NCBI GenBank assembly: GCA_017431145.1
Contig: JAFRLQ010000004.1
Span: 1 to 64,000, forward strand
Direction: 5' to 3'
From: Clostridia bacterium
GTDB taxonomy: Bacteria > Bacillota > Clostridia > Christensenellales > Maliibacteriaceae
Length of the DNA: 64,000 nt
The notes beneath the pieces were generated by a model, which did not search any database, was not told where the DNA came from, and saw only the letters and a list, made by a program, of their open reading frames with translations. Position 1 is the first letter of the stretch, and every line of letters starts with the position of its first letter. This document shows, piece after piece, positions 20,392 through 44,010 of this stretch. The position numbers and the translations under genes were made by a program.

Positions 20392-20468
20392 GGCGGCATA
20401 GCTCAGTTGGCTAGAGCACTCGGTTCATACCCGGGTTGTCATCCGTTCGAATCGGATTGCCGCTACCA
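20392..20468 (+). tRNA. tRNA-Met (elongator-type, anticodon CAU)
   Basis: The 5' strand GGCGGCA pairs with TGCCGCT (one G-T pair), and ACCA is encoded at the 3' end. The anticodon loop TTCATAC gives CAT. The stem is CTCGG/CCGGG. It lacks the three G-C pairs of initiator tRNA, so I read it as the elongator (a CAU tRNA-Ile modified by TilS is a less likely alternative). Confidence 0.9.
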
Positions 20469-20469
20469 A

Positions 20470-20491
20470 AGAGGCCTATGGCCTCTTTTTT
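20470..20491 (+). terminator. Terminator of tRNA-Met
   Basis: AGAGGCC, a three-base loop, GGCCTCT and a T run directly after the encoded CCA. Confidence 0.92.
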
Positions 20492-20514: not shown

Positions 20515-20543
20515 TTGACACAAAAAAACGCTTCTCTTATAAT
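20515..20543 (+). promoter_or_regulatory. Consensus sigma-A promoter for an apparent non-coding RNA
   Basis: TTGACA (20515-20520) and TATAAT (20538-20543) are both perfect and 17 bases apart. No open reading frame follows for over 250 bases, so the product should be an untranslated RNA. Confidence 0.85.
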
Positions 20544-20549
20544 TTGTGT

Positions 20550-20738
20550 AAACACCCTGGAATGTTTGTTACGGTTTTTATAATTAAACCTACATTTTTA
20601 TTATGGGAGTTTACGTCAATTGGAAAGATTGAATTTGTTAGAATTCGGTTTTTTTATTTGCAGAACACCCACCTGCGAGTTGCAGGGCGTTAATTAGGAA
20701 TCGGACGGCATTTTGGGGTATAGTTTTTGCCTTTTTTT
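20550..20738 (+). ncRNA. Candidate structured RNA, 6S RNA-like (about 189 nt)
   Basis: The predicted transcript starts about seven bases after the perfect -10 box. Its ends can form a closing stem: 20552-20564 pairs with 20709-20721 at 12 of 13 positions, counting G-U pairs. A T-rich run (20731-20738) follows. Inside, TAATTAA (20581-20587) pairs with TTAATTA (20690-20696). This leaves a large asymmetric internal loop between the two helices, like the 6S central bubble, and a small hairpin (CCTGC/GCAGG, about 20672-20686) lies within. No coding frame is present. Length and layout fit 6S (ssrS); the identity is inference and no sequence signature was matched. Confidence 0.45.
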
Positions 20739-20764: not shown

Positions 20765-20793
20765 TTGACATCACAAAGCAATGAAACTATAAT
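20765..20793 (+). promoter_or_regulatory. Promoter of tRNA-Gln-tRNA-Glu
   Basis: Perfect TTGACA (20765-20770) and TATAAT (20788-20793) are 17 bases apart, 26 bases upstream of tRNA-Gln. Confidence 0.85.
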
Positions 20794-20819: not shown

Positions 20820-20893
20820 TGCGGAATAGTGTAACGGCAGCACCTACGACTCTGACTCGTATTGTCTAGGTTCGAATCCTAGTTCCGCAGCCA
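20820..20893 (+). tRNA. tRNA-Gln (anticodon CUG)
   Basis: The acceptor TGCGGAA/TTCCGCA, anticodon stem TACGA/TCGTA with loop CTCTGAC (CTG), and T loop TTCGAAT are all clear. A G discriminator and CCA are encoded at 20890-20893. Confidence 0.93.
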
Positions 20894-20897
20894 TTTT

Positions 20898-20970
20898 GCC
20901 CTCGTGGTCTAGAGGCCTAGGACGCCGCCCTCTCACGGCGGTAACAGGGGTTCGAATCCCCTCGAGGGTG
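20898..20970 (+). tRNA. tRNA-Glu (anticodon CUC)
   Basis: The acceptor GCCCTCG/CGAGGGT encloses anticodon stem CCGCC/GGCGG with loop CTCTCAC (CTC). CCA is not encoded. It lies four bases after tRNA-Gln and shares its promoter. Confidence 0.93.
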
Positions 20971-20974
20971 CTGA

Positions 20975-21006
20975 GTTTGATAACTTAAATGTTATCAAAC
21001 TTTTTT
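20975..21006 (+). terminator. Terminator after tRNA-Glu
   Basis: GTTTGATAAC and GTTATCAAAC form a perfect 10-bp stem with a six-base loop, followed by six T residues. Confidence 0.93.
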
Positions 21007-31533: not shown

Positions 31534-31616
31534 GCGAGGGTGGCGGAACTGGCAGACGCGCACGTTTAAGGGGCGTGTGGGTGACCGTACGGGTTCGATT
31601 CCCGTCCTTCGCACCA
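31534..31616 (+). tRNA. tRNA-Leu (anticodon AAG)
   Basis: A class II tRNA with acceptor GCGAGGG/CCTTCGC (one G-T pair) and an encoded ACCA end. The anticodon stem CACGT/GCGTG holds loop TTAAGGG, giving AAG (A34 is normally deaminated to inosine). It is the third leucine isoacceptor in this window. Confidence 0.9.
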
Positions 31617-43674: not shown

Positions 43675-43681
43675 TAAATTT

Positions 43682-44005
43682 GAGTCGGATCTATAAGCCG
43701 AGTTTTGTCTGGAACGATCATCTATCTAGATCAATTGTTACCAATTGATTCAAGCGATTATTGGGGAATGTGACGGGCCGCCACTCTCTCCCACCAATCT
43801 TGCTCCGGATGGGGTTTACATGACGGACAAGTCGCCAAGCCGCCGGTGAGCTCTTACCTCGCCTTTCCACCCTTACACTTAACGTGCGGTTTATTTCTGT
43901 TGCACTTTCCCTGAAGTCGCCTTCGCCGGGTGTTACCCGGCACCCTGCCCTATGGAGCTCGGACTTTCCTCGTGATTCTTCATCCCGCGATCGTTCGATC
44001 CGCTC
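43682..44005 (-). ncRNA. rnpB: RNase P RNA (type A-like)
   Basis: The catalytic RNA that trims the 5' leader of pre-tRNAs. The hallmark CRI block GAGGAAAGTCC is near the 5' end. AGGGCAGGGTGCCGGGTAAC and GGAAAGTGCAACAGAAA follow, and the distal conserved end is read as ACTCGGCTTATAGATCC. The two ends form P1 (GAGCGGATC against GATCCGACTC, imperfect). The arrangement and about 324-nt length fit the ancestral type A, not Bacillus type B. The gene follows the coiled-coil zinc-ribbon gene by five bases, so its promoter probably lies inside that gene. Confidence 0.93.
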
Positions 44006-44010
44006 AAAAA

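Follow-up and report, generated by a model that had tools for sequence, protein, structure and literature searches.

A 6S RNA gene among tRNA genes in a Clostridia bacterium and its probable inclusion in tRNA operons of related lineages

Identity of the locus

Which RNA is made from a region that carries a perfect promoter and lies among tRNA genes? This question is raised by a locus within a 64 kb stretch of DNA from a Clostridia bacterium, hereafter the window. The original prediction had been a 6S RNA or, failing that, an unnamed small RNA. We conclude, with a probability of about 0.96, that the region at 20551-20723 encodes the only 6S RNA of the cell, whose transcription is driven by a strong housekeeping promoter of its own. 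The locus, previously unlabelled, is thereby assigned to the predicted global regulator of RNA polymerase in this species. In itself this 6S RNA is canonical and ordinary; the unusual part, which is worth following, is the probable tRNA operon arrangement found in relatives.

The promoter is of the sigma-70/sigma-A type and was found to be as perfect as had been predicted (Table 1). Exact TTGACA-17-TATAAT sites occur twice in the 64 kb window, and the second one (20765-20793) serves tRNA-Gln. The 6S transcript is predicted to start at about 20550-20551 and to be about 175-190 nt long. No convincing open reading frame was detected at the locus, in agreement with the original prediction; it holds just frames of 38-89 amino acids, as does every strand here. 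The T-rich run claimed as a stop at the end of the region is also present, and the terminator scan found no separate terminator hairpin at this end.

Table 1. Features of the 6S RNA locus and its tRNA neighbourhood in the window.
Feature	Position	Strand	Basis or detail
tRNA-Met	20392-20468		separate unit
Terminator of the tRNA-Met unit	20468-20488
Sigma-70/sigma-A type promoter, TTGACA-17-TATAAT	20515-20543	+	12/12 consensus match; TTGACA 20515-20520, 17-nt spacer, TATAAT 20538-20543
6S RNA (ssrS), 173 nt core bounded by RF00013	20551-20723	+	Rfam and held-out lineage model
Closing stem P1, 5' strand	20554-20566	+	minimum-free-energy fold; partner 20707-20719
P2 5' strand TAATTAA, next to bubble; also predicted pRNA template	20581-20587	+	pairs with 20690-20696
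5' central bubble	20588-20604	+	unpaired probability >0.9 for 20591-20603
Apical arm, starts GGGAG, ends ...CACCC; AU-rich and short in the window species	20605-20669	+	base covaries
3'-bubble hairpin CCUGC-GAGUU-GCAGG	20672-20686	+	probability 0.95-0.98; pairs 20672-20676 with 20682-20686
P2 3' strand TTAATTA	20690-20696	+	exact complement of 20581-20587
Closing stem P1, 3' strand (GGCATTTTGGGGT)	20707-20719	+	minimum-free-energy fold
T-rich run after P1, probable transcript end	20724-20738	+	sequence; TTTTT 20724-20728, TTTTTTT 20732-20738
tRNA-Gln/Glu	20820-20971		separate unit with its own promoter
Terminator of the tRNA-Gln-tRNA-Glu unit	20973-21002

The Rfam covariance model for 6S RNA (RF00013) matched the region with 58.8 bits against a gathering cut-off of 46.4 (E 4.3e-9 in the window), and the match spans positions 1-187 of the 187 in the model. 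Its start coincides with the transcript start expected from the promoter. No other Rfam family reached its own cut-off at the locus; matches to mir-30, NCRUPAR_2, BTnc231 and others were far below their own cut-offs and were rejected. We also built a lineage model from 16 relatives, from which the window and its whole family were excluded because circularity was to be avoided. This held-out model gave 82.3 bits for the window 6S RNA, with the next best match at 9.0. 6S RNA usually has one copy per genome, and across the whole 2.38 Mb assembly Rfam and another lineage model detected this one copy and no second one, the next matches of the latter model having 8.3 and 8.1 bits (E about 9). The proposed 6S identity thus stands, and with an Rfam name assigned, the label of an orphan or unnamed small RNA is dropped.

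The modest RF00013 score counts against the 6S reading, as do the lack of a separate terminator hairpin in the scan and the poor fit of the outer apical arm. Together with the aberrant, AU-rich apical arm, the modest score would suit a different, unnamed small RNA that shares with 6S just the outline of a long rod interrupted by an internal loop. We regard such an RNA as highly improbable, as the RF00013 match is full-length and over the cut-off, the held-out model has an E value of 2.7e-19, and the assembly contains no other 6S RNA. It is further opposed by own-family orthologues (L021 and L026) in the same position beside tRNA-Gln and by the invariant C and A at the pRNA start.

Secondary structure and covariation

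The 6S region folds with an energy of -53.6 kcal/mol (z -4.0), which none of 200 dinucleotide shuffles equalled; of 228 folded segments of the window whose GC was similar or lower, just one was as stable. The two ends of the RNA pair as originally described, P1 consisting of 13 consecutive pairs, G-U included. The internal TAATTAA/TTAATTA helix (P2) was recovered with 7 of 7 positions paired and a pairing probability of 0.47-0.85. P1, P2, an unpaired 5' bubble, a 3'-bubble hairpin and an apical arm are all present, as in the 6S plan suggested for this RNA. The 3'-bubble hairpin, which is of the type known from B. subtilis and lactic acid bacteria, is kept in the consensus of 19 aligned relatives.

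RF00013 was detected at E 1 or better in 43 of 61 relatives, and the lineage model recovered a strong 6S RNA in several of the remaining ones. We then examined covariation in 24 aligned sequences with the structure of Rfam itself, which was not fitted to those sequences. In this structure 73.6% of cells were paired and 26 pairs had two-sided changes. The covariation score was 0.254 as compared to 0.128 in shuffled alignments, and none of 500 shuffles reached any of five measures, giving the covariation that the original prediction had called for. When the partners were slid by 1-3 columns, pairing fell to 39-50%. RNAalifold found compensatory changes in 21 of 31 pairs. In helix 1 (P1), 82.8% of cells were paired and 9 of 17 pairs had two-sided changes, and the CGGCA in its 3' strand was invariant. 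Two-sided changes were likewise found at 7 of 10 pairs in helix 2 (P2) and at 8 of 15 in helix 3, the base of the apical arm. The projected Rfam structure misfits the relatives in the outer apical arm (helices 4 and 5), and therefore we make no structural claim for that part. In helix 5 only 24% of cells were paired, the sequence of the outer arm is not conserved, and that of the window species agrees poorly with the consensus of the family.

Compared with the same-genus relative L026, the window RNA has a shorter apical arm with a higher AU content, as might be expected of a decayed or paralogous 6S RNA (6S-2 type) that is no longer the main regulator, and a second copy could be missing from the assembly, which consists of 148 contigs and is about 91% complete. 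Against decay or paralogy, the consensus promoter is kept and P1, P2, the bubble and the 3' hairpin are intact. The gene also adjoins tRNA-Gln like its orthologues in its own family and in many related families, and B. subtilis 6S-1 remains able to cycle in vitro when truncated to short arms (PMC8876501). Decay or paralogy is accordingly very unlikely in our judgement, and a canonical, single-copy 6S RNA remains the preferred reading.

Predicted pRNA and comparison with known systems

Characterized 6S RNAs imitate an open promoter and occupy the active site of the sigma-A polymerase; release occurs once the enzyme has transcribed the 5' strand of the bubble into a pRNA that opens P2 (PMC8876501). 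By analogy we infer the same cycle for the window 6S RNA. Its rod of P1/P2 stem, central bubble and apical arm would imitate an open promoter, bind the active site of the housekeeping RNA polymerase holoenzyme and hold the polymerase when nucleotides are scarce. Once nucleotides return, the polymerase would start at C20593 and transcribe the 5' side of the bubble on into P2. The resulting pRNA would begin GUAGGUUUAAUUAU, and the opening of P2 would release the 6S RNA.

The pRNA start is predicted to be templated by C20593 with A20594 adjacent, and both columns are invariant in the 24 sequences. The predicted product, 5'-GUAGGUUUAAUUAU..., opens with GUAGGUUU opposite 20593 and has GG at pRNA positions 4/5. 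Verified pRNAs are marked by an adenine beside the start and GG at positions 4/5 or 5/6 (PMC8414754). Since the template is AU-rich, the pRNA is predicted to be UUUAAUUA-rich. In folding computations, blocking a 14-nt template cost 2.0 kcal/mol and the hybrid yielded -14.9 kcal/mol, and the 3'-bubble hairpin persisted in the template-blocked folds, as in B. subtilis 6S-1. For B. subtilis a value of -22.4 kcal/mol has been given (PMC8876501); the AU-rich 14-mer hybrid predicted here is weaker, and release may therefore need a longer pRNA.

Like E. coli ssrS and B. subtilis 6S-1 in the RF00013 family, the window RNA has a closing stem, a central bubble, a 3'-bubble hairpin and an apical arm, a predicted length of about 175-190 nt and a sigma-A promoter; the family's pRNA start C with adjacent A and GG at pRNA 4/5 are predicted for it. 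Transcripts of the family typically measure about 180-200 nt and are abundant in stationary phase. It differs from these examples in its AU-rich template, its short AU-rich apical arm and its tRNA neighbours. It also resembles the 6S RNA of lactic acid bacteria, which has a single copy, a canonical structure, an adenine beside the pRNA start and a conserved genomic neighbourhood, although the neighbours there are rarA and uspA instead of tRNA genes (PMC8414754). Ms1 of mycobacteria, an abundant RNA polymerase-binding small RNA, shares the 6S-like outline; however, it is an actinobacterial RNA that binds the core polymerase (PMC9130861), whereas the window locus matches RF00013.

6S RNA in probable tRNA operons of the order

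The location among tRNA genes in the original prediction is correct, with tRNA-Met on one side of the 6S gene and tRNA-Gln/Glu on the other. The window contains three separate units (tRNA-Met, 6S and tRNA-Gln-tRNA-Glu), and its 6S copy is autonomous, with its own promoter. tRNA-Gln also lies downstream of 6S in same-genus and same-family relatives, 196 and 125 nt away. Elsewhere in the window, ARAGORN called a tRNA-Leu(AAG) at 31534-31616 on the + strand, which is below the Rfam tRNA cut-off and may be spurious, and a class A RNase P RNA gene (261 bits) was detected at 43677-44006 on the - strand.

In a sample of 112 6S loci from the order, 6S beside tRNA-Gln(CTG) was found to recur throughout. 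In 29 of the 112 loci, from 8 families, no more than 20 nt separate the end of tRNA-Val(GAC) from 6S, and in 32 the same limit holds between 6S and a following tRNA-Gln(CTG). Both tRNAs flank 6S within 20 nt on each side in 23 loci from 5 families, for example in L005 (G012), L006 (G023), L007 (G017), L019 (G006), L072 (G239) and L115 (G065). A TATAAT-like -10 box precedes 6S in none of the 29 loci with tRNA-Val directly upstream versus 54 of the 83 others (Fisher p 5.6e-11, a value that overstates independence because the loci are related). Of 28 scored loci, 27 have an exact TATAAT ahead of tRNA-Val, mostly at a distance of 9-25 nt. The 6S core CCTG starts 2-15 nt past the encoded CCA of tRNA-Val. 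The remaining locus, L145, was read by eye and has the same arrangement. For other orders of the class, 28 loci from 14 families were examined, and none had a same-strand tRNA within about 1.5 kb of 6S.

In the tRNA-Val-6S loci, 6S probably arises by cleavage of a tRNA precursor, and a tRNA-Val-6S-tRNA-Gln precursor is the simplest reading for these lineages. We consider it likely that in part of the order 6S is carried as a passenger in an operon with the order promoter, tRNA-Val(GAC), 6S, tRNA-Gln(CTG) and has no promoter of its own. RNase P and the maturation of tRNA 3' ends would then generate the ends of 6S, the level of 6S would follow growth-coupled tRNA transcription in place of a dedicated promoter, and the autonomous 6S of the window would be another state of the same linkage. 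In the literature searched, which covered few subscription papers, we found no description of the tRNA-Val-6S-tRNA-Gln arrangement. The comparison revealed that 6S and tRNA genes are linked across the lineage, in the closest form with 6S placed directly inside a probable tRNA operon. Should transcripts bear out the operon, 6S supply would be coupled to tRNA synthesis and 6S maturation to RNase P, a point relevant to the control of a stationary-phase regulator.

Some variation was observed among the loci and genomes. In two loci, L085 (G067) and L113 (G103), 6S comes right after tRNA-Val, no tRNA-Gln was called behind it, and shortly past 6S there is a terminator-like hairpin with a T run. Two near-complete genomes of 0.8-0.9 Mb from family f29 (G030 and G053) had no convincing 6S by Rfam or the lineage model, and loss of 6S is possible in them. 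Genome G020 carries two 6S copies over the cut-off, L010 and L032.
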